NCBI RefSeq assembly: GCF_014696385.1
Contig: NZ_JACJQB010000026.1
Span: 1 to 47,983 of the forward strand
Length of the DNA stretch: 47,983 nt
Direction: 5' to 3'
Source of the DNA: Pseudanabaena mucicola FACHB-723
GTDB taxonomy: Bacteria > Cyanobacteriota > Cyanobacteriia > Pseudanabaenales > Pseudanabaenaceae
In this document: in pieces, positions 8,546 through 47,828 of the stretch
Position numbering within the stretch: the first letter of the stretch is position 1
How the letters are laid out: the number at the start of each line of letters is the position of its first letter
Notes under the pieces: model-generated
Databases searched by the model: none
Told to the model about the DNA's origin: nothing
Seen by the model: the letters and a program-made list of their open reading frames with translations, nothing else
Translations under genes and position numbers: made by a program

Positions 8546-11500
8546 ATGACCATAATTCCTCCTCCTTCTCAACCCAGTCGTCCAAACACATCTGTGGGAA
8601 TCGTCAATAGCAATAATGTCAATTGCCAGAATATTAAGGGGTTTAAAATTCCGTTAAGTCTGTTGATTATTGTCCCTTTTTTGGTAAGCACTTTTGGCAT
8701 TGTGGGGCTAATTGGCTGGCTATCTTTTCGGAATGGTCATGATGCCGTGACTCAACTCGCGGGGCAACTTCGCAGCAAGGTGACCGAGCAGGTCAAAAAT
8801 CGCCTGCATTCATATTTAGAACTGCCCTATATCCTCAATGATCTCAATGCCAACAGTATTGATGTCGAGAATATGGATGCGGAACAGGGAAGCAAAATCC
8901 AGAATCACTTTTCCAAGCAGTTACGCAGCTTTTCACAGATTAATAATATCTATGTGGCAAATACTTCAGGACAGTATTTTGGGGTAAGACGCATCCATCA
9001 AAATTTAGCGTTAGAGAGTTTATCTTCAACTTACATGGCTGATACTAAGGGCAATCCACAGATGCTTCTATTGCCTAGGGGAGGATTTAATCTTGTTGAG
9101 CGACCTTGGTATCAGGAATTAGTAAAAGCTAAAAAAAACACATGGTATGAAATTTACACTGATTTAATCACCGAGGAAATGGCAATCACGGCGATTAAGA
9201 CAATATATGAACCCACGGGGGAAATTCGAGGGGTGTTAGGGGTGTCGATGTTGTTGGGGGATATTAATCTATTTTTGCAAAACACTAAAGCTAGTGAACG
9301 TGGTCAGACTTTTATCATTGACCCATCAGGTAAGCTAGTGGCGACTTCTAGTTTTGACTTAATCAGAAATATCGCTATTTCTTGGAAAACTAAGCCTGAG
9401 CCGATTTTGGCAATTAACAGTCTAGATCCTTTAACAAGGGTAGCGGCGGCAAGTCTTGCGAGTGACTTTAAGCTCTCCAGTGTAAATTCTGATCAGATTC
9501 AACAGTCAAGTATTTATGTGGATGGAGAGAAATATTTTATTCAGGTGGGGAAACTCAATGATACCTATGGTCTGAATTGGCGAATTGTGGTGGTGGTTCC
9601 TGAATCTGAGTTTATGTCACAGATTTTCTTTAACACCCGATTTACGCTGGTATTGTGTGTGTTGGCATTGGGATTGACAACAGTTTGTGGGATTTTTGCC
9701 GCTCGGTGGATTAGCCGTCCGATTACGCAACTGAGCCTCGCCAGTCAATCGATTGCCAATGGGAATCTCGATCAAAAGGTGGAATATTCATGTTTGGTAA
9801 AGGAACTAGCAATATTGGCAACTTCTTTTAATCAGATGATTCGTCAAATGAAAAAAGATCACCTTCGTCAAGAGGAATATTCAGACCTATTGATGCAGAA
9901 GGTGGCGGAGCGAACGCAAGCTTTGCAACAGGAGATTTTGGAGCATGAAGTTACGGAAGCTGCCTTGAGGGCTTCGGAGGAAAAATTTGCGAAGGCTTTC
10001 CGCTCTAGCCCTGATGGAATGGCGTTACTATCGACGGAGACCCGCAAGCATATTGAGGTGAATGATAAGTGGAGCGAGATTACTGGCTATAGCCGCGAGG
10101 AGGCCATTGGTGCAAATCCCACAGAGTTAAATCTTTGGTTTGATTTGCAAGAACGCGATCGCATGTTGGAGATTTTAGAGCGCGAAAATCGGGTTGCGGA
10201 TTTTGAAGCTACCTTTGTGTCTAAGAGTGGTAAGAAAATTATTGGTTTGGTTTCTTCGGAATGTATTGAATTTGGCGAAAGATCCTTTGCAATTTATGCC
10301 CTTAAAGATATTAGCGATCGCAAATCTATTGAAGAAAGTATTAAGGAAAGTGAAAAGAAATATCGTGACCTTGTGGAATCGGCAAACTGCATCATTTTAC
10401 GCTGGGATGCCCAAGGGCATATTTGTTTTTTGAATGATTATGGCTTAAAGTTCTTTGGCTATCAATTAGAAGAGATCATCGGCACATATATATTAGATAC
10501 GATTGTCTCTGTCCAAGATGTATCGGGGGAAGATCTACGGGGCATGATTGCAGATATATGTTGTGCGCCCGAAAAATATCAACTCAATGAGAATGAAAAT
10601 ATCTGTAAAGACGGTCGCAGGGTATGGGTAACTTGGTCAAACAAAGCAATTTATAACGATCAAGGTGAACTGATTGAAATTTTATCAGTGGGAACTGATA
10701 TCACCGATCGCAAACGCGCTGAGAAGGAATTGCAGGCGGCTAAGGAAGTTGCGGATATGGCAAACCGTGCCAAGAGCGAATTTCTTGCCAACATGAGCCA
10801 TGAATTACGCACGCCGCTCAATGGCATTCTTGGCTATGCCCAAATCCTCAAACGTAATTACGATCCTGATAAACACAAGGCAGGTTTAGAGATTATTCAA
10901 CGCAGTGGTGAGCATTTGTTGACATTGCTTAATGATATTCTCGACCTTTCTAAAATTGAAGCTAAAAAATTGGAACTAAACCTCAGCGAGTTTGAGCTAT
11001 CCAAATTGATGCAAAGCATTACGGATATGTTCCAATTGCAAGTTTCAACACAGGATGTGCAGTTGGTCTATCAGCAACTCAGTGACTTGCCAAGGGTGAT
11101 GTATGGCGATGAAAAGCGGTTACGACAGGTATTAATCAATTTATTGGGCAATGCAGTGAAATTTACCGATCGTGGTACAGTTTCGCTGTCTGTGAGCGCT
11201 CAGCCCACGGGCAATGCCAATACTTATAAAGTATGTTTTGCGATCGCAGATACAGGTGTGGGAATTGCCCCCGATCGTTTGGAAGAGATCTTTTTGCCAT
11301 TTCAACAGGTGGGCGATCGGGCGCGGCGCTATTCTGGCACAGGTTTGGGCTTACCAATTTGTCAAAAAATTGTCGAGATGATGGGCGGTAAGTTACAAGT
11401 TGAGAGTCAACTCAATGTTGGCAGTAAATTCTGGTTTGAAATTGAACTGGCGGAAGTTTCCCACTCTACCCCCAATCCCAAAATGGATAGCCGCACGATT

Positions 11501-12190
11501 ACGGGTTATGTGGGTAAGCGGCGCAAAATCTTGATTGTGGATGACAAAGTTGAGAATCGGATGGTCTTGCAAGACTTGCTGAATCCCCTTGGTTTTATTT
11601 TGGCAGAAGCCGTTGATGGCGATGACTGCATTAGGCAAGCCCAGCAATTTCAGCCAGATCTGATCTTGCTTGATATGGTAATGCCCAATCTCGACGGGCA
11701 TGAGACGACCAAGCAATTACGTCAATTGCCGATGTTCCAGAACACAGCAATTGTGATGGTTTCCGCCAGTGTCTTTAATCAAGATCGCAGTCTGAGTATG
11801 GCGGTGGGCTGTGATGACTTCATCGCGAAACCGATTGATCCTGATTCTTTGTTCTACACTTTGCGATCGCTATTACATTTGGAATGGCAACAGGAAGAAT
11901 CAGGCCACAATTCTAACAATCAAAATAATCACTCGGAAATAAGTAACACTGCGATCACCCAACCCCTGATTTTTCCATCTGAGCCAACTATCGAGCAGCT
12001 ATTAAAACTAGCGCGGATGGGTGATGTTTTGGCAATTCAGGATGAAGTGACGATACTTAAAGAGCATGACAGTAACTTGATTCCCTTTGCCAATCAAGTT
12101 CTCCATTATGCTCGTGATTTTCAAATCAAAAAGATTCGCGAGCTTTTGGAATCTCAAACCCTAAAAATTGCGATCGCGCCAAAAAAATAA
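8546..12190 (+). CDS. Membrane hybrid sensor histidine kinase (Cache-HAMP-PAS-PAS-HisKA-HATPase-REC)
   Basis: A 1214-residue inner-membrane hybrid kinase. In order: a TM helix (about 34-56), a periplasmic double-Cache-like sensor (about 65-360), a second TM helix (about 368-390), HAMP, a coiled coil, two PAS domains (from about 478 and about 608), HisKA with phospho-acceptor His752 in [11 protein letters not shown], HATPase with the N box, D-T-G-V-G-I-A and G-T-G-L-G-L motifs, a receiver domain with Asp1043 in L-L-D-M-V-M-P-N, and a C-terminal helical region of about 80 residues common in cyanobacterial hybrids. No response regulator is adjacent, so the output partner is elsewhere. Ligand unknown. 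Confidence 0.93.
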
Positions 12191-32161: not shown

Positions 32162-33361
32162 TTACCTGAGAACTGAAGTATATATTTTCATTAATTGCTG
32201 ATAATTGGTGGAGCGGGTATAAAGTTTTTCATAGGTTTGAGATGCATTCTTCCCTAAAATTGATAATGCTTCAGGATTTGTACCGCACCAATGTAATTTT
32301 TCTACCCATGCGCTAATGCGATCGCAAGAAATTAAAAAGCCGTTATGTTCTGAGGTAATTAATTCGGATAAAGCTCCTATGTCTGAGGCAAGGACAGGTT
32401 TGCCACAGGCAAAAGACTCAACTACTACTCGCCCGAAAGTTTCATGCCATTGTGACGGCACGGCGATTGCGGTTGCCGATTGGATTACTTCCATAATTTT
32501 AGTGGGCGGCAAATATCCTAGAAATTTAACATTCTTTAATCCTAACTCAAGAACAAACTGCTCTAGTTTTGATTTTTCTGCACCATCGCCAAGGATTTTT
32601 AATTGCCAGTCTGGTCTATCTAGAGCCGCCCAAGCTTTTAGCAATGTAAGTACGCCTTTCTCTGGGGATAGTCTACCAACAAATAAAAAATTAGGTTGAT
32701 TAAAAATTTTTAATTCTAAGTCTTTCTGGACAGAGGAATTAATTACATTGGGTCTTACATGGAGGAGATTGCTATTAATGCCAATTTCTTTAAGTTTATC
32801 TGCGGCGAAGTGACTAGGTGTAATAAACCCACTGACATCTTTTTGCCAAGTGCGCCGCCAACGATTGAGGGTGATCATTGCCCAAACTGCTAAGGATGCG
32901 ATCGCGGAGTCACGGTAACAACCATAAATCACGCCGCGCCAAGGATTTTGGCTCACACAGGCTTCGCAAATTTTGCCATTTCTTAATAAGTAGCCATTCA
33001 AGCAACCCAGTCGGAAATTGTGTAAATGTTGAATTGTGGGAATATTTAGCGATCGCGCTGCTGCATGGACAGAGGGTGAGAATAGCGGAAAAAAATTCTG
33101 GACATGGACAATATCTGGTTTAAGCTTTTGAAAATGCGATCGCATTTCCCAATAAACCTTAAAGTTCCAAGCTGTCTCTGCAAATAACTTTAGTTTTTTA
33201 AATGGCGAATAGGCTTTAATAATATCATTATGAACTTCAATGAGCGTCACTTGATGACCATATTCGCGTAACAATTCTACATCTGCATCGGTCGAGACAT
33301 CTTCACCGCCAGCATATTGGTAGCGATTATGAATCATCACAATATGTAGAGGTTTAGACAT
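32162..33361 (-). CDS. Glycosyltransferase family 4
   Basis: A 399-residue GT-B fold glycosyltransferase, last gene of the minus-strand polysaccharide cluster. N-terminal domain: Y-Q-Y-A-G-G-E-D (sugar-acceptor loop) and I-V-H-V-Q-N-F-F-P. C-terminal GT4 domain: F-V-G-R-L-S-P-E-K-G-V-L, L-G-D-G-A-E, and the donor-binding motif H-E-T-F-G-R-V-V-V-E-S-F-A-C-G-K-P-V with the E-x7-E pattern. Retaining mechanism by family. The donor sugar is unknown. I use the ATG at 33361; a GTG at 33373 would overlap the upstream gene. Confidence 0.9.
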   Translation of the reverse strand: MSKPLHIVMIHNRYQYAGGEDVSTDADVELLREYGHQVTLIEVHNDIIKAYSPFKKLKLFAETAWNFKVYWEMRSHFQKLKPDIVHVQNFFPLFSPSVHAAARSLNIPTIQHLHNFRLGCLNGYLLRNGKICEACVSQNPWRGVIYGCYRDSAIASLAVWAMITLNRWRRTWQKDVSGFITPSHFAADKLKEIGINSNLLHVRPNVINSSVQKDLELKIFNQPNFLFVGRLSPEKGVLTLLKAWAALDRPDWQLKILGDGAEKSKLEQFVLELGLKNVKFLGYLPPTKIMEVIQSATAIAVPSQWHETFGRVVVESFACGKPVLASDIGALSELITSEHNGFLISCDRISAWVEKLHWCGTNPEALSILGKNASQTYEKLYTRSTNYQQLMKIYTSVLR

Positions 33362-33365
33362 AAAA

Positions 33366-34223
33366 TTAATCACTTATTTTTGGCGAAAACACGACAGCTT
33401 GTAACGCTGCGCCCATACCAAAAACAGGCATTATTTTGTAGATAGAGCTTGCAATTATTTTTAATAGTTTGTTCCAAGTTGAGATAACTTCAATCTTGTA
33501 AGGAGCATTTGTAAATATTTTGAATTTATCAAATCCTGAAATTGTCAAACTGCTAGCAAGTGACTTGGAACTATAGTAGTTAATATGTTCAGGAGGGATA
33601 ATATTTGACCAGTTTTTACCTCTAATTTTTGCTCCCAAACTATCTAAGTTCGGAGTTTCAATAAATAAGATTCCTTCAGGGCTGAGAAGTTTTTGTAGTT
33701 TTTTGAGAGTGGCAATAGGGTCGATTACATGTTCAATCACATGGTAGATCGTAATTAAATCAAAATGAGCTTCTGGTAGATCCAAGGATAAAATATCCCC
33801 AACTAAAATTTGCTCACGAATATTTATCTGAGCTTGCAGGACAGCTTTAGGAGAAATTTCAGTTCCATAGACCTGCCATCTGTCTGCGATCGCAAATTGC
33901 AATAGATCTCCTAAACCACAGCCAATGTCAAGAAATGTTTTATGTGGTTTATTGAATAAATTAGGTTGATGCTTAGAGACTATTTTCTTCAATTCTTGAT
34001 ATCTATTTTTCGTAAAGTCTTGACTAGACATGACACTTTGAGAGTAGTCCTGTCGATAGGATTGTTGATCGTAAAAATTGGCTAGTTCATCTTGTGTAGG
34101 TCGTGGCACATAAAACACTAATTGGCAATTTTGGCAAGTTAAGAGTTTTCCTTGGTCAATTGTATAAAGGTGTTTATGGTGGGTATGTTCACATACTGGG
34201 CATATATACATAGTTGAATCCAT
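33366..34223 (-). CDS. SAM-dependent methyltransferase with N-terminal zinc ribbon
   Basis: A 285-residue class I methyltransferase. The start has a zinc-ribbon pattern C-P-V-C (residues about 8-11) with C-Q-N-C (about 30-33); the Rossmann core has F-L-D-I-G-C-G-L-G-D-L-L for SAM, and Y-H-V-I-E-H-V typical of the Methyltransf_23 group. Enzymes of this layout methylate sugars or nucleotide sugars in polysaccharide clusters, which suits its place between glycosyltransferases; the acceptor is inferred only. It lies 2 bp after the upstream glycosyltransferase and 4 bp before the next gene. Confidence 0.88.
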   Translation of the reverse strand: MDSTMYICPVCEHTHHKHLYTIDQGKLLTCQNCQLVFYVPRPTQDELANFYDQQSYRQDYSQSVMSSQDFTKNRYQELKKIVSKHQPNLFNKPHKTFLDIGCGLGDLLQFAIADRWQVYGTEISPKAVLQAQINIREQILVGDILSLDLPEAHFDLITIYHVIEHVIDPIATLKKLQKLLSPEGILFIETPNLDSLGAKIRGKNWSNIIPPEHINYYSSKSLASSLTISGFDKFKIFTNAPYKIEVISTWNKLLKIIASSIYKIMPVFGMGAALQAVVFSPKISD

Positions 34224-34225
34224 GT

Positions 34226-35125
34226 CTACAAATATTCTCTTAGCCTATTCTTAACTCGAGACCAGAGACTAAATAATTTTTTATGGGTAAAGTCATCAGC
34301 TTGGCGATCGCGCACGACAAATGGCGGATGTCTTAAGGGAAACTGCATAGTTTCTGTGGGCATATTTGCAAAAGGACTGTTTTTATTTTTTGTATGTGTA
34401 CTTGATTCACGATCAAAACCAATATTAGAAACTAAGTTTTGATTTGGCAGAATAGTTAATCCACTTTGCATCCAGCAGCTTAATGTCCAAGGATAGCCCC
34501 AGTCATCAAACTTCCCTTTATGAGTCTGCTGAAGTTTATATTTCCAATACTTTACCGATGCATCATTTTGTAAAATATCATTCAGCCAACCCTCATCGCG
34601 AGCAGTTTCCCATAATTTCATTTCACCATCGTAATGTTGCCAAGCTCGCCGCCATGTAGCCCAACCCCAGACATGGGGATACAAAGAGTAATAATAGCTA
34701 TAATCATTGCGCTTTCTGCCATCTTGAAAGTTATCACCTGATATGGCAAAAATACGCTGATCATCTCGATATTTTTCCAATAATTCTTCGCAAAATGGAA
34801 AGAAAGAGTGATCGGGTAAGCAATCATCATCAAAAATAATCGCTGAATCCACTTGACTAAATACCCAGTCTAGCCCTGTCGATGTTCTTATTTTGCATCC
34901 TAAATTAGTCTCTGAATAGTTCCTAAATACTTGGCAATTCCAATTAGTTTGTTCGAGAAATTGAATAACCGACTGACATTTGGCATGATCATCGTGCTTG
35001 AAATTTTTAGGGCCATCAGCAACCAAAAAAACTTGTGATGGTTTAGATTCTAAAATTCTAGAAACTACCATTTGAGTTTGCTTTAAGCGATTATAGACAA
35101 TGAGAACGATGGGTGTATTAGTCAT
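34226..35125 (-). CDS. GT-A type glycosyltransferase (HlpA-like)
   Basis: A 299-residue single-domain transferase of the nucleotide-diphospho-sugar fold, like proteins often labelled hemolysin HlpA-like. Landmarks: P-I-V-L-I-V-Y-N-R at the N-terminus, F-L-V-A-D-G-P-K, the metal-binding A-I-I-F-D-D-D-C-L-P (DxD), and P-H-V-W-G-W-A-T-W-R-R-A-W. It is in the polysaccharide unit; the sugar it adds is not known. The last exact HIP1 octamer before a long gap lies inside this gene (34304-34311). Confidence 0.82.
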   Translation of the reverse strand: MTNTPIVLIVYNRLKQTQMVVSRILESKPSQVFLVADGPKNFKHDDHAKCQSVIQFLEQTNWNCQVFRNYSETNLGCKIRTSTGLDWVFSQVDSAIIFDDDCLPDHSFFPFCEELLEKYRDDQRIFAISGDNFQDGRKRNDYSYYYSLYPHVWGWATWRRAWQHYDGEMKLWETARDEGWLNDILQNDASVKYWKYKLQQTHKGKFDDWGYPWTLSCWMQSGLTILPNQNLVSNIGFDRESSTHTKNKNSPFANMPTETMQFPLRHPPFVVRDRQADDFTHKKLFSLWSRVKNRLREYL

Positions 35126-35311
35126 TTATCAAAATGTTTAAAATATTTATGATATAAATGTTTAAGAAATTTCAAAAAAAAGGTAGAGCGTAAACACGAA
35201 TTATCTTTTCTGTAAACAAATTAAAATTTTCTCTGGCTTATATCTGTACCAAGGTGTTAGAGCTAAATATTTATAATATTCTTGCTTATAAGGATGATTG
35301 TCAACATAGTC

Positions 35312-36439
35312 TCAAGATTTCTCAAGAATCTTATGGTATAGGGCTAGAAAACTCTGTGATTGATTTAGTTCTGAAAAATATTCAGTTACCCTTTGCTTTC
35401 CCGCATCCCCCATGTGCTTCATTAAAGTTGTATTTTCTAGCAAGGTAAATAGCTTAGACACAAATTCATCAACATTTTGACTAGAACAAATGAATCCAGT
35501 TTTGCCATCTATAACTGATTCTGACAATCCGCCTACGTCAGAAACAACGCAGGGTAAACCGTAGCTCATAGCTTCCAAAACTGCAATCCCTTGACTTTCC
35601 ACTAAACTAGGCTGAAGGTATATACAAGCTTCAACATAATACGAGTTAACGTCTTCACAACTACCTTTAAATAATATTTGATGACATAAACCAAGGTTAT
35701 CAACCTCCTCTTTCATCTTATCCAATAGATCGCCCGTCCCTAACCAAATAAATTTTAGTGACGGCTTTCTCTGAATTGATTTTTGTGCTATCTTTAACCA
35801 AATATCAGGATTTTTGTACCACATAACATGACCTACAGTTAAAATCGTTTGTGAAGTTAGATTTGAGTAATTATCAGAATACGGCACTCCATTAGGTATA
35901 ACGTCGATCAATTGACGAGGAATCTTAAAATATTTACTAATAATGACCGCTGAGGATTGAGACACAGTAACAAATTGCTTATTAAAACTCTTATTTTGTT
36001 TTGCAAAATGCGAAATTAAGTGATAGATTCCCACTAACAGAATTGATAGCTTACTAATAAACAATTTTGAGATGGGATAAGTATGCATGGTAAACACTAC
36101 CGAACAAGGAAATAGAAGTACTCCCAACATCAATCCTGGAGTTCCGTTAGAAACATGGATGATATCTGGCTTAAATGTACTAAAGCAATTCCAGACAGTA
36201 AAAATATCAAAAGCTAGTGATAAGTAAGGAAGTTTAAATAACTTACTTCTATTAGATACTTCAAATATTTTAATATTCTGATCTTCTAATTGTTGAACTG
36301 GAGCAAAGCTTAATTGATATTTTTCTAGAATAACAGTCGTTTCAATTCCATCATTAATGTGGGTCTTTATTAGTGTCTTAAAAAAACGAAACGTCCCAGA
36401 TTGTTGGGTACTAAATTCAGGAATAATTAGTACTTTCAT
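35312..36439 (-). CDS. Glycosyltransferase family 4
   Basis: A 375-residue GT-B retaining glycosyltransferase. The acceptor domain contains F-K-P-D-I-I-H-V-S-N-G-T-P-G; the donor domain has I-P-N-G-V-P, W-L-G-T-G-D, and V-E-S-Q-G-I-A-V-L-E-A-M-S-Y-G-L-P-C-V, the E-x7-E donor motif. Part of the AT-rich middle of the cluster. The 186 bp between this gene's stop and the next gene downstream (35126-35311) contain no frame I can support. Confidence 0.88.
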   Translation of the reverse strand: MKVLIIPEFSTQQSGTFRFFKTLIKTHINDGIETTVILEKYQLSFAPVQQLEDQNIKIFEVSNRSKLFKLPYLSLAFDIFTVWNCFSTFKPDIIHVSNGTPGLMLGVLLFPCSVVFTMHTYPISKLFISKLSILLVGIYHLISHFAKQNKSFNKQFVTVSQSSAVIISKYFKIPRQLIDVIPNGVPYSDNYSNLTSQTILTVGHVMWYKNPDIWLKIAQKSIQRKPSLKFIWLGTGDLLDKMKEEVDNLGLCHQILFKGSCEDVNSYYVEACIYLQPSLVESQGIAVLEAMSYGLPCVVSDVGGLSESVIDGKTGFICSSQNVDEFVSKLFTLLENTTLMKHMGDAGKQRVTEYFSELNQSQSFLALYHKILEKS

Positions 36440-36461
36440 TTTCTAAATCTTTGTTTAATCA

Positions 36462-37400
36462 TTAAAATATCTTCTTGGATTTGAGCTTTATCCATGCTCG
36501 AAAATACCCATATGCTTCACCGATGTTAATAACTATCCATGACATCAGGTATATTTTGATTTTTGTGGCTAAAGATATTTGCTGATGAGGAAATGGCAAC
36601 AGTTTCCAGTTTGGTTTACGAGGCGAGACTAGTATTTTAATGCATCTTAGTGGATGTTTCCATCCGTATTTACCAGCCCATTTGGAATTATGTTCACACA
36701 AGATAAAAGTTCCTTTCCCATTTCTTTTGGACTTATGCCACATTTCCTTAAAAGTTTGGCGAGGGGGATGCCAGACGATCGCCTTATCAGCATAGGCTAG
36801 AGTGATCCCCAATCGAGTCGCTCTCATCCCAAATTCCATGTCTTCAACTGATGCTTCAGGAAAAGTTTCGTTAAATGTACCAACCTTCTCAAAAACATCT
36901 CGTTTCACAAACAAGTTAGGTGTGATACAAGCACCTACACCATTTATTGCACTTTCTTGATCGTAGCAAAGTAGAGCCTCAATCAAAGAATAAATTGAAC
37001 TGTTACAGGTAAGAGATCTAATATTAATTCGCCCACCTACTCTATCTACCTTGTTGTCTTGCATACATTGAATACCTTGTCGTAACCAGTCAGATTCTGG
37101 AATACAATCACCATCAATAAAAGCAAGTATATTTCCCGTAGCAATCTCAATACCTTTATTGCGAGTGGCGGCAACACTTTGGATTTGGATTTGATTAACG
37201 ACTGTAATGTTAGAGAAATACGTGAATTTTTTAGCGATTTCTAATGAGTTATCGATTGAATTATTATCAACAATAATAATTTCTATTCTCTGTTCATTAT
37301 CTGGATTATCTTGAGATTGTAATGCTAAAATAAGATCTACAATATTAAATGAACAATTATATATAGGTGTGATAATGCTGACCGTAGGGTATTGATCCAT
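36462..37400 (-). CDS. Glycosyltransferase family 2
   Basis: A 312-residue inverting GT-A glycosyltransferase. N-terminal V-S-I-I-T-P-I-Y-N-C, V-D-N-N-S-I-D-N-S, the A-T-R-N-K-G-I-E block and the metal motif L-A-F-I-D-G-D-C-I-P are clear; F-P-E-A-S-V-E-D-M-E-F-G-M-R carries the catalytic E-D. A C-terminal hydrophobic helix (about 285-303) may tie it to the membrane. Spacing to its neighbours is 22 and 15 bp, so it belongs to the same unit. Donor unknown. Confidence 0.9.
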   Translation of the reverse strand: MDQYPTVSIITPIYNCSFNIVDLILALQSQDNPDNEQRIEIIIVDNNSIDNSLEIAKKFTYFSNITVVNQIQIQSVAATRNKGIEIATGNILAFIDGDCIPESDWLRQGIQCMQDNKVDRVGGRINIRSLTCNSSIYSLIEALLCYDQESAINGVGACITPNLFVKRDVFEKVGTFNETFPEASVEDMEFGMRATRLGITLAYADKAIVWHPPRQTFKEMWHKSKRNGKGTFILCEHNSKWAGKYGWKHPLRCIKILVSPRKPNWKLLPFPHQQISLATKIKIYLMSWIVINIGEAYGYFRAWIKLKSKKIF

Positions 37401-37415
37401 GTTGTTTAATTCTGC

Positions 37416-38366
37416 CTAAAAATATGTGATAAATCTGCGTTTGAACTCTGATACTCGCAATCGAAAAGACTGCGAGAAAAATCGCAGAAATGTTATAAAT
37501 ACAATTGGAACAAAATATTGACATCCGTAATATTTGATAAAACTTATGAGCCCTTTAAAATATGAGTATTCTGTTAAATGATAAACCAACCATACACGCC
37601 AAGATAAGAGAGATTGATGCGTAAACATTAGTCTAAAAATATCAAGAGTTTTCCCTTCTTGAATCAGCCAATTCTGAGGATTTAAATTAGAAAATCCTGA
37701 CAACATATTAAGGATTAAATACTGGTTGCTTACATATATTTTAAATCTCTGCTTCTGAACTTGAGTAATATAAATAAAGTCTCCAAGATAGTGAGGATAT
37801 AAGTTAGATTTTGGATATCCAGTTGTATCAATAACACTTCTGGGTAAGCATACAAAATTACCGTTCAACATATCACATTCCTCAATTTCATTCTGTGAAC
37901 AATTGATGGGTTCAAATAGGGGTTTACTTGGATATTTTAAAATTTGTTTGTTTTTTCGATGTCCTCCAAAAGCAATTTGCTGATAGTTTGTAGATTGATA
38001 ACCTTGATAGCCAATGATCGTCTTAGTATTTTGTTTGCAAAAAACAATTAGATTATTGATTGATTCTTTTGCTACTAAACAATCATCATTTAGCCAAATA
38101 AAATATTCTGCACCTTTTTCATAAGCATATTCCATCCCCTTTTTAATTGCACCTGTCCACCACAAATTACCATCTCCTTCTAATATAACCACTTCTGGAT
38201 AAAGAGATTTGATAGCTTCACTAGTGCCATCTGTTGAACCATCATCAACAACAATCACATAATACTTTGCAAGATCACCGTTATGCTCTAAGGTATTTAA
38301 GCAATTCAGAGTAATATCCTTACGGTTATGGACGGGAATGATAATGTGGATATTTTCTTTGATCAT
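37416..38366 (-). CDS. Glycosyltransferase family 2
   Basis: A 316-residue GT2 protein of the rhamnosyltransferase-like branch. Seen: I-H-I-I-I-P-V-H-N-R, V-V-D-D-G-S-T-D-G-T, G-D-G-N-L-W-W-T-G-A-I, the DxD-like W-L-N-D-D-C-L, and D-F-I-Y-I-T-Q-V. G-N-L-W-W-T-G is typical of this subgroup. It is the first full gene of the cluster on the minus strand and follows the broken ABC ATPase fragment by 52 bp, so the export ATPase that would serve this cluster in cis is missing in the window. Confidence 0.88.
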   Translation of the reverse strand: MIKENIHIIIPVHNRKDITLNCLNTLEHNGDLAKYYVIVVDDGSTDGTSEAIKSLYPEVVILEGDGNLWWTGAIKKGMEYAYEKGAEYFIWLNDDCLVAKESINNLIVFCKQNTKTIIGYQGYQSTNYQQIAFGGHRKNKQILKYPSKPLFEPINCSQNEIEECDMLNGNFVCLPRSVIDTTGYPKSNLYPHYLGDFIYITQVQKQRFKIYVSNQYLILNMLSGFSNLNPQNWLIQEGKTLDIFRLMFTHQSLLSWRVWLVYHLTEYSYFKGLISFIKYYGCQYFVPIVFITFLRFFSQSFRLRVSEFKRRFITYF

Positions 38367-45812: not shown

Positions 45813-45853
45813 TAAGCCCTGTGACACACTCTGCACGTGCGGCACAGGGCTTA
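45813..45853. terminator. Hairpin after the aminotransferase gene
   Basis: Perfect 11-bp arms 45813-45823 and 45843-45853, with an inner GCACGTGC palindrome (45833-45840) in the loop region. It starts 2 bp after the aminotransferase stop and lies 28 bp upstream of the next start. No T run. Confidence 0.55.
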
Positions 45854-45881: not shown

Positions 45882-47828
45882 ATGACCAAATTTGACTTTC
45901 TATCGGATATCCAAAAATCTTGGCATTCCATGGGTGTGGAACAAGTGTTAGCGGCTTTGGAATCTTCGGTAGAAGGCTTGTCCTATGTAAATGCAAGGCA
46001 AAGACTCAGGCAACTGGGAACGAATAAATTGCCGCGATCGCGCCCCCTTAGCAAAATTCTCTTACAGCCTTGGCGTAGCCCTTTAACCTATATGCTGCTG
46101 GGCGCAGCAGCATATTTACAATGGCAAGGGGCAGAGGGTTGGGCAATTATTTTTGTGGGTGGATTCCATAGTGCGATCGGTATTGGCATCTCGCTGTGGT
46201 CTGCAAAAACTAGAGAGAAAGTCAGTCGAGATCGTCCGCAACGTCGCCAAAATGAGCCATCTACTTCAGTGATAGTCTTGCGCGATCGCGAGGAAATAGA
46301 ACTACCCGCGAGGGATTTGGTGTTGGGGGATGTGTTGGTGCTGCGAGAAGGGGAGCGCCCCAATGTGGATTTGCGGGTGATTGAAACCTCAGAGGATCTA
46401 CGGGTCAATCAGACTAATTTGGGCGGCGAGGCAATTTGCTATAAACAAGCTGATCTTACCTTCGAGGAAAAAACGCCACCCCTTGAATGCAGCAATATGA
46501 TCTATGCAGGGACAGAAATTTCCGCAGGCATGGCAAAGGGGGTTGTAATTGCGACGAGTCGCTTTACCCAAGAACAGTCCGCCTTAAATCACGAAAAGCC
46601 TTTTTCGGTAATTCATGCTGAACTCCAAAAGCTACGCCAAGTCTGGCTAGGGGTGTTATTGTTGGTGATCACGGCTGCGATCGCATTTTCATGGCAAAAG
46701 GGGATCGTAATCAATGCAATGATGGCGGCAGTGCTGATGGTGAGTACCTATCCGCAAAATCTGTTACGCATCGCCACTCAGGTACAATTGTCGGGAATGC
46801 TTGATCTCGCCAAACAGCGGCTATGGGCAAGATTTCCTTCAGTTTTAGATGCGATCGCCAGAACAACAACCATTGTGCCGATCGTTGAGTCGGATGTGGT
46901 GCTGAGCTTTGATAATTTGAGTCGCGCAGGCATCGAATGGAAAGGGCTAATTAGAGCTTCGGCGGATGATGCGGAAGCCTTTGGGCTGGCGATTGGAATT
47001 GCCACCTATAGCTATTTTGATGCCCCGCAAGAACGGATTCGGCAATGGCAAGGCAATTACTCAACTTCCAATCATGCTGTAGCGATTATTGGTAGCGATG
47101 TTGAAGATATTCCTCTATTGAGAACTGCGGATGTCGGAATTTGTGATCGCACCTGTCGCAAAGAATTACAAGATAGTGCGGGGCTAATTTTGCCCAAAGA
47201 AGACTTCCATTATTTACCGATCGCAATTCTCGAAAGTCGCGCCACCTTTGATCGGTTGCAACGCACAGCTCTAATGACAGCCGCAAGTTCTTTTACGCTG
47301 GCGAGCCTGACCCTGATTGATGCCGCAGCGGGTTTCTCCGCAGTACCCTTACAGTTACTTTGGATTGGAGCGATCGCCACACCGCTTGTTGCCTTCCCCC
47401 TCGTGCTAGAGCCAACCCATGAAAGTCTCTTAGGTCAACCAGCCCATCGCTTTCAAACGATGCTGCGCCCCAGCAATTATCTCCGCATCTTGTTGGCTGT
47501 CACCGCAACTGTCACCGCAGTTTCTCTAGTTTTTTGGATGAAATATCAAGGACAACCGTCATTACTATCTCAGGCAAGGTCAATGGCATTTGTCACCCTT
47601 GGCTTTAGCCAAATTTTTCACGCCTGTGCGATCGCTCGTCAAAGTGTCCTTGGCAATTTACCGTTACTACTCAGCATTTCCTTTGTCAGCACTTGTCAAA
47701 TTGCCTTTGTCCAAGTGCCTTGGTTTAGTGACTGGATGGTGACAGTGCCTCTCAATGGTATCGAATGGACGATCGCTATTCTTAGTGCTACATCTGTATT
47801 TTGGGTGCAAGAGTTGATTAAAAACTAA
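45882..47828 (+). CDS. P-type ATPase-like membrane protein lacking phosphorylation site and N domain
   Basis: A 648-residue intact frame related to P2-type cation ATPases (usual length about 900). Recognisable: the N-terminal cytosolic region (G-L-S-Y-V-N-A-R-Q-R-L-R-Q-L-G-T-N), M1-M2 (about 68-110), an actuator domain with V-L-G-D-V-L-V-L-R-E-G-E-R and G181-G-E-A184 where T-G-E-S is normal, M3-M4 (about 255-300), and a C-terminal M5-M10 block (L-Q-L-L-W-I-G). At the phosphorylation site S337-D-V-V-L-S replaces S-D-K-T-G-T-L-T; only about 65 residues separate it from G404-S-D-V-E-D where T-G-D-G-V-N-D is expected. So pumping by the usual cycle is not possible. Role unknown. Confidence 0.85.
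   Translation: MTKFDFLSDIQKSWHSMGVEQVLAALESSVEGLSYVNARQRLRQLGTNKLPRSRPLSKILLQPWRSPLTYMLLGAAAYLQWQGAEGWAIIFVGGFHSAIGIGISLWSAKTREKVSRDRPQRRQNEPSTSVIVLRDREEIELPARDLVLGDVLVLREGERPNVDLRVIETSEDLRVNQTNLGGEAICYKQADLTFEEKTPPLECSNMIYAGTEISAGMAKGVVIATSRFTQEQSALNHEKPFSVIHAELQKLRQVWLGVLLLVITAAIAFSWQKGIVINAMMAAVLMVSTYPQNLLRIATQVQLSGMLDLAKQRLWARFPSVLDAIARTTTIVPIVESDVVLSFDNLSRAGIEWKGLIRASADDAEAFGLAIGIATYSYFDAPQERIRQWQGNYSTSNHAVAIIGSDVEDIPLLRTADVGICDRTCRKELQDSAGLILPKEDFHYLPIAILESRATFDRLQRTALMTAASSFTLASLTLIDAAAGFSAVPLQLLWIGAIATPLVAFPLVLEPTHESLLGQPAHRFQTMLRPSNYLRILLAVTATVTAVSLVFWMKYQGQPSLLSQARSMAFVTLGFSQIFHACAIARQSVLGNLPLLLSISFVSTCQIAFVQVPWFSDWMVTVPLNGIEWTIAILSATSVFWVQELIKN

Follow-up and report, generated by a model that had tools for sequence, protein, structure and literature searches.

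What can a P2-type cation ATPase still do once it can neither be phosphorylated nor bind ATP? The question is raised by a gene at positions 45882–47828 of the forward strand of the window, which is the whole stretch of DNA analysed here, 47,983 nucleotides that form one complete contig (NZ_JACJQB010000026.1) of Pseudanabaena mucicola FACHB-723. A previous model-made reading of the letters (the sequence-only reading) had described an intact 648-codon frame with P2-type domains. This was borne out, as the gene is an uninterrupted open reading frame (ORF) of 648 codons plus stop, and Pfam placed three domains above cut-off, PF00690 (Cation_ATPase_N, residues 14–77), PF00122 (E1-E2_ATPase, 128–312) and PF00689 (Cation_ATPase_C, 489–647). 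Beyond these domains nothing was found in Pfam at E values up to 1, and no model of a catalytic phosphorylation (P) or nucleotide-binding (N) domain matched. The ORF, the Pfam domains, the orthologues and a structure model identify the gene as, almost certainly, a conserved and catalytically dead P2 pump, which is called the pseudo-pump below.

The loss of the catalytic machinery was examined in an alignment of 29 pseudo-pumps with 45 ordinary P2 pumps (23 from its own and related genomes and 22 from viral contigs), the pump rows being partly picked by their DKTGT and GDGxND motifs and of mixed ion specificity. Aligned columns are named by the SERCA residue numbers to which we take them to correspond. 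Residues 375–507 and 511–593 of L096, a P2 pump of the same genome, have no counterpart in any of the 29 pseudo-pumps, and the missing block, about 216 residues relative to L096, comprises DKTGT, the entire N domain and a DPPR-like motif. The DKTGT columns are gaps in 29/29, so that the phosphorylated Asp of a working P-type ATPase is lacking, and the N domain is likewise absent from all 29. In a separate alignment the window protein again showed a gap opposite DKTGT in 21/21 P2 rows, and the motif is absent from the G277 pseudo-pump as well. The deletion junction (residues 332–336, positions 46875–46889), located by the two alignments, is identical across the 29 aligned members, which belong to five genera. 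The sequence-only reading had taken DKTGT to be replaced by D338-V-V-L-S-F; this assignment has to be given up. D338 is not the old phospho-Asp, because it belongs to the helix on the C-terminal side of the N domain, in the stretch DPxRxEV..AI..C..AGI, and the motif itself has been deleted.

What is left of the P domain (residues 319–454, positions 46836–47243) alternates strands and helices, as judged from the alignments and the model, and is devoid of catalytic residues. G626 is replaced by R and D627 by A or T in every pseudo-pump, the Mg-site Asp703 is D in 0/29, and K684 is K in 7/29; D707 survives as D in 27/29 and is E otherwise. Each of these five residues is retained in 45/45 P2 pumps, rows that had partly been selected by motif. 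The combination of TGD, K684 and GDGxND that marks a working P-type ATPase is missing from the pseudo-pumps. TGDGVND appears in the window protein as I-I-G404-S-D-V-E-D409, with GSDVED (residues 404–409, positions 47091–47108) in place of GDGVND, and the dephosphorylation motif TGES has degenerated to G181-G-E-A (residues 181–184, positions 46422–46433). The T column of TGES holds G in 27, S in 1 and T in 1 of the 29 members, so that the motif as found in working pumps is lost, and its Glu (E183) is still E in 23. Two of the three motif substitutions read from the sequence, those of TGES and TGDGVND, and the collapsed spacing between the P-domain motifs were thus confirmed; the third motif, DKTGT, was not substituted but removed in the deletion of about 216 residues.

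The clean boundary of the deletion between the P and N domains would fit a split pump, in which a phosphorylation and nucleotide-binding cassette encoded by a separate gene complements the pseudo-pump in trans. Ten genomes were searched with the segment from DKTGT to TGD of a P2 pump, and the matches lay in ORFs of at least 654 aa, apart from one weak match to an ORF of 436 aa in G032, a fragmented genome. Moreover, residues of the remaining P domain have been lost too (TGD, D703 and, in 22/29, K684). With no clear orphan cassette in the 10 genomes, the split pump is largely refuted, and we consider it scarcely credible.

The membrane ion site, on which the sequence-only reading was silent, has changed as well. 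E309 is Q or K in 29/29 pseudo-pumps and kept in 37/45 P2 pumps; E771 is E in 0/29 and in 22/45, respectively. N796 has become G in 29/29 (kept in 32/45 pumps), and D800 has become T in 28 members and M in one (kept in 37/45). The M4 break, PEGLP in Ca pumps, reads YPQNLLR (residues 290–296, positions 46749–46769) and is adjoined by R296, invariant in 29/29, and the M6 segment WMNLVTD of L096 reads WIGAIAT (residues 494–500, positions 47361–47381). The M4, M5 and M6 ion ligands of a P2A Ca pump are therefore not present in the pseudo-pumps, and their alteration speaks against a cation pathway of the Ca-pump type. As evidence, these ligand columns carry less weight than the P-domain residues, because the 45 pumps are of mixed specificity. 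With the catalytic residues, the N domain and the ion ligands all lost, ATP-driven transport by the pseudo-pump is very probably excluded on sequence grounds.

A ten-helix bundle that no longer uses ATP could nevertheless act as a passive conduit or carrier, passing an ion or small solute down its gradient. The structure model retains all ten helices, and M3–M4, which lines the ion path in real pumps, is the most constrained of the stretches computed. The acid and amide ligands of the Ca site are gone, however, no acidic residue occurs in M4 or M6 as delimited, and the invariant Arg at the M4 break would repel cations. Because of the lost ligands and this Arg, we regard the conduit as unlikely.

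The model, obtained with a mean predicted local distance difference test score (pLDDT) of 78.9 and a predicted template modelling score (pTM) of 0.75, shows ten membrane helices, an actuator (A) domain and the P remnant; 21 real P2 pumps were included in the alignment behind it and guide it. A model built from 17 rows 70–82% identical to the window protein, with the pumps left out, was unusable (pLDDT 37.3). Even in the pump-guided model, the loop that corresponds to TGES is poorly defined, with pLDDT below 50 at residues 182–187 and 189–202. The N-terminal segment (residues 1–57, positions 45882–46052), in which Cation_ATPase_N begins, is followed by helices M1–M2 (58–110, positions 46053–46211, from model helices with borders set by the analyst), the A domain belonging to E1-E2_ATPase (111–246, positions 46212–46619) and helices M3–M4 (247–300, positions 46620–46781). 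Beyond the P remnant lie helices M5–M6 (455–512, positions 47244–47417, with borders delimited in the alignment) and M7–M10 (513–648, positions 47418–47825), which make up most of Cation_ATPase_C. Of the 648 residues of the model, 622 aligned to SPCA1 (Z 40.1, root mean square deviation 8.5) and 612–614 to MgtA (Z 34.5); Ca- or Mn-bound E1 states head the structural ranking, which may be biased by the real pumps used in the alignment. The nearest NCBIfam model is TIGR01522 (PMR1/SPCA-type Ca pumps), with 101.2 bits and hence far from its equivalog cut-off of 798.3, followed by TIGR01524 (MgtA-type; 99.7 bits, cut-off 610.75); the score for TIGR01116 was 91.7 of the 703.4 bits of its cut-off. 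TIGR01522 also ranked first for four pseudo-pumps of other genera. Membership of the P2-type fold is well supported, since the model aligns to SPCA1 over nearly its full length; the three Pfam domains and, in the pump-guided model, the ten helices with A and P domains are those of this fold. The earlier proposal that the protein keeps the transport scaffold without ATP turnover is supported by this retained fold and the loss of the catalytic residues.

The two cytoplasmic domains might instead serve a sensor or receptor, in which a ligand or lipid in the membrane part would move the A domain and the P remnant and so signal to a cytoplasmic partner. Both domains are retained and constrained, and W315, W353, R358 and W389 are invariant in the pseudo-pumps and absent or rare in P2 pumps. 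On the other hand, Pfam found no output domain, and, apart from neighbours shared within g7, the genera compared have no conserved neighbouring gene in common; a sensor seems possible but rather unlikely to us. Altogether 103 positions are invariant in the 29 pseudo-pumps, 35 of which are found in at most 10% of the 45 P2 pumps; Y35, R39 and Q40 likewise are invariant in the family and rare in the pumps.

The pseudo-pump belongs to a conserved family, a further point that the sequence-only reading did not mention. Our sample held 388 genomes of the class, 38 of them in the same taxonomic family (26 of the same genus and 12 of other genera) and 350 outside it. Orthologues free of internal stops occur in 31/388 genomes, all within that one family: 25/26 of the same genus, 6/12 of the other genera (one a frameshifted fragment) and 0/350 of the rest. 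The only same-genus genome lacking a match is incomplete (82%). The match is near full length in 30 of the 31 genomes and covers residues 58–473 in G303. A profile of the deletion junction recognised the pseudo-pumps at E values of 1e-42 to 1e-90, the next value being 2.9e-14 among the matches listed (168 of the 388 genomes matched). Four genomes in a draw of 386 from the phylum matched at 1e-13, all of the same genus; the viral contigs searched held no relative of the family, and no pseudo-pump was found in genera g2 and g3. Eight ORFs shorter than 650 aa outside the family, among the matches listed, were rejected as ordinary or broken pumps: TGD and GDGxND are present in 8/8, and DKTGT lies in the same frame in four and in another frame of the locus in three, while the remaining one (L197) starts at the contig start, past this region. 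We also observed, in a genus in which no pseudo-pump was found, an ordinary P2 ATPase (L137, G027:C3:2632500-2638500) with its DKTGT region split over two frames of 547 and 358 aa, which is a frameshifted pump or an assembly error.

Selection was measured as the ratio of nonsynonymous to synonymous substitution rates (dN/dS) by the NG86 method, genus pairs being kept if the proportion of synonymous differences (pS) did not exceed 0.55 and dS was 0.05 or more (36/300 pairs). Against the window copy, dN/dS was 0.064–0.098 in 24 genomes, at dS values of 1.4–2.4 that are near saturation. The median over the retained pairs was 0.082, and the lowest median of the stretches computed was that of M3–M4 (0.038, same pairs). 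On the same six genome pairs, dN/dS of the pseudo-pump was 0.070–0.115, compared with 0.062–0.071 for a true P2 pump; the pseudo-pump is therefore constrained nearly as much as the pump. The gene is under purifying selection within the genus. A lone pseudogene is ruled out by the orthologues, the lack of stops in the 31 matches and a dN/dS far below 1, the frameshift in G303 being the exception. The sequence-only reading had argued for selection and not fresh decay, and had opposed to it a deleted pseudogene with DKTGT-bearing close homologues of normal length and dN/dS near 1; the orthologues, the dN/dS values and the pump control uphold the former, and the latter combination was looked for and not found.

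A slowly decaying pump remnant with no present function would be in keeping with a protein that changes faster than real pumps, was not found in g2 and g3 and is frameshifted in G303. It would have to be reconciled, however, with 31 matches devoid of stops, with a dN/dS of about 0.08 within the genus despite dS of 1.4–2.4, and with the same junction in 29 members of five genera. We consider such decay highly improbable.

In a tree with the 45 P2 pumps, the pseudo-pumps formed a single branch with a support of 100, the placement of which is unreliable owing to a long-branch warning. Among the nearest branches, with the same uncertainty, are L106 and a clade of P2 pumps from the same taxonomic family (L142, L153, L154 and L156) that carries PEGLP in M4; the M6 of L154 and L156 reads WLNM(L/I)NS, not WxNLVTD. 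Within the family, the gene tree separated {g1,g7} from {g4,g5,g8} (support 100/98). The rpoB tree, from which G303 and G035 were left out, joined g1 with g7 (98/99) and g4, g5 and g8 with g3 (92/93), g3 having no pseudo-pump. The simplest reading, with which the trees are consistent but which they do not prove, is that the dead state predates the genera and was inherited vertically, with a loss in g3.

As to the present role, the likeliest, we infer, would be that of a non-catalytic membrane partner or scaffold. A P2-type cation ATPase has lost its DKTGT loop and complete N domain, missing as one internal block, and also its remaining catalytic residues and usual membrane ion ligands; the ten-helix membrane fold, the A domain and what is left of the P domain have been retained, and the invariant M4 Arg would fill the old cation site. 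The protein would attach to a second membrane protein and set the activity, stability or location of this partner, for which a plausible candidate is a real P2 pump, for instance a Ca-ATPase presumed from its motifs to be SERCA/PacL-like. This statement as a whole, a dead P2 pump working as a membrane partner or scaffold, is in our judgement plausible, with a chance approaching even. We hold more tentatively, as a possibility, that a standalone family of P-type pseudo-pumps has persisted through the history of several cyanobacterial genera in the dedicated service of a functioning P2 pump or another membrane protein, which it would regulate or scaffold. G007, G011, G028 and G032 each encode just one other PF00690 protein, a pump of 924–945 aa, so that a P2 partner there could only be that pump. 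Relatives of the candidate partner, 55–100% identical over the catalytic segment, were found in eight of the 10 genomes searched, all 10 of which carry the pseudo-pump. Structures of MgtA dimers in the PDB, as far as entry titles tell, were also counted in favour of a partner.

Several observations weigh against this proposal. The best match to the candidate partner in G031 and G277 is only 49% identical, and a pump of the candidate's clade is present in G027, which lacks the pseudo-pump; co-occurrence is therefore not specific and no proof of partnership. The pseudo-pump has a long stem (1.61 changes per site) and changes faster than a real pump, its dN/dS being 1.0 to 1.9 times that of the true pump on the six shared pairs. 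In G303, the N-terminus of the copy (L093, C149) lies in another frame and the C-terminus runs to the contig end; this frameshift may be an assembly error, since the G303 genome is a draft of 83% completeness. Working P2 pumps, too, differ in their ion ligands (E771 is E in 22/45). Finally, no partner was found, and the neighbouring genes differ between genera: two genes common upstream within the genus, an aminotransferase gene and that of an uncharacterised protein of 442–455 aa, are absent from 4/4 loci of other genera. The sequence-only reading had suggested looking for a conserved neighbour encoding a true P-type ATPase, but among 389 other ORFs of at least 80 aa (of 415 in 27 flanking stretches) none resembled a P2 pump at E 1e-5.

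Within the genus, 21 loci were compared (the window, L038–L053 and L088–L091; L092, which duplicates the L043 locus, was left out). The DegT/DnrJ/EryC1 aminotransferase gene lies at most three ORFs upstream of the pseudo-pump in 18/21. The 442–455 aa protein is encoded by the next ORF upstream in 13/21, the window not being among them, and its copy in L042 (L042:6583-7908) matched nothing in Pfam (E 1e-5) or NCBIfam (E 0.001). Neighbours common to both g7 loci include an upstream DnaJ-type gene. An obligate operon partner is ruled out, as conservation of the neighbours does not extend beyond the genus. Between the upstream aminotransferase gene and the pseudo-pump gene, a repeat search found an inverted repeat (positions 45813–45853; 17 nt, 7-nt loop, 88% complementary), which may be a terminator; it is absent from the terminator-scan output, and the scan for promoters and terminators showed no excess of signals over shuffled sequences. 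Elsewhere in the window, positions 8546–12190 encode a large hybrid sensor kinase with Cache, HAMP, PAS, HisKA, HATPase and receiver domains, and a cluster on the minus strand (32162–38366) encodes glycosyltransferases in three of the four ORFs tested.

The phospho-Asp is regarded as the defining feature of the P-type ATPase superfamily. A family devoid of this residue, the ATP-binding domain and the usual ion ligands, and yet under strong selection, would show that the pump scaffold is useful apart from pumping, and would provide a natural experiment on what the A domain and membrane part can do alone; if our proposal is true, a pump would here have given rise to a pump subunit. The gene also carries a warning for annotation, as Pfam domains alone probably lead to the label of a cation-transporting ATPase. 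The full-text literature searched, a scope that leaves out most subscription papers, yielded no account of a dead P-type ATPase family that stands alone, and the passages on six terms in a 2023 review of unanswered questions about P-type ATPases contain no such case (PMC10654040).

The best matches by sequence and structure are the SPCA1/PMR1 (TIGR01522) and SERCA-type P2A pumps, with which the pseudo-pump shares the fold, the ten helices, the A domain and half of the P domain; unlike them, it lacks DKTGT, the N domain, TGD, D703, PEGLP and WxNxxTD. Its likeness to MgtA-type pumps (TIGR01524), which are full pumps, consists of the second NCBIfam match, far below cut-off, and the structural alignment. 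A dead P-type ATPase presumably also forms the N-terminal segment of FUPA family 24 (CtpH/CtpI of mycobacteria), and one half of these proteins was reportedly called non-functional in a survey of prokaryotic P-type ATPases. In FUPA24, however, the dead part lies within one long protein together with a working pump, whereas the pseudo-pump is standalone and itself of type II: its gene ends at 648 aa, with no P-type ATPase in the flanks. Like pseudoenzymes in general, the pseudo-pump belongs to an enzyme superfamily, has lost catalysis and is kept by selection.
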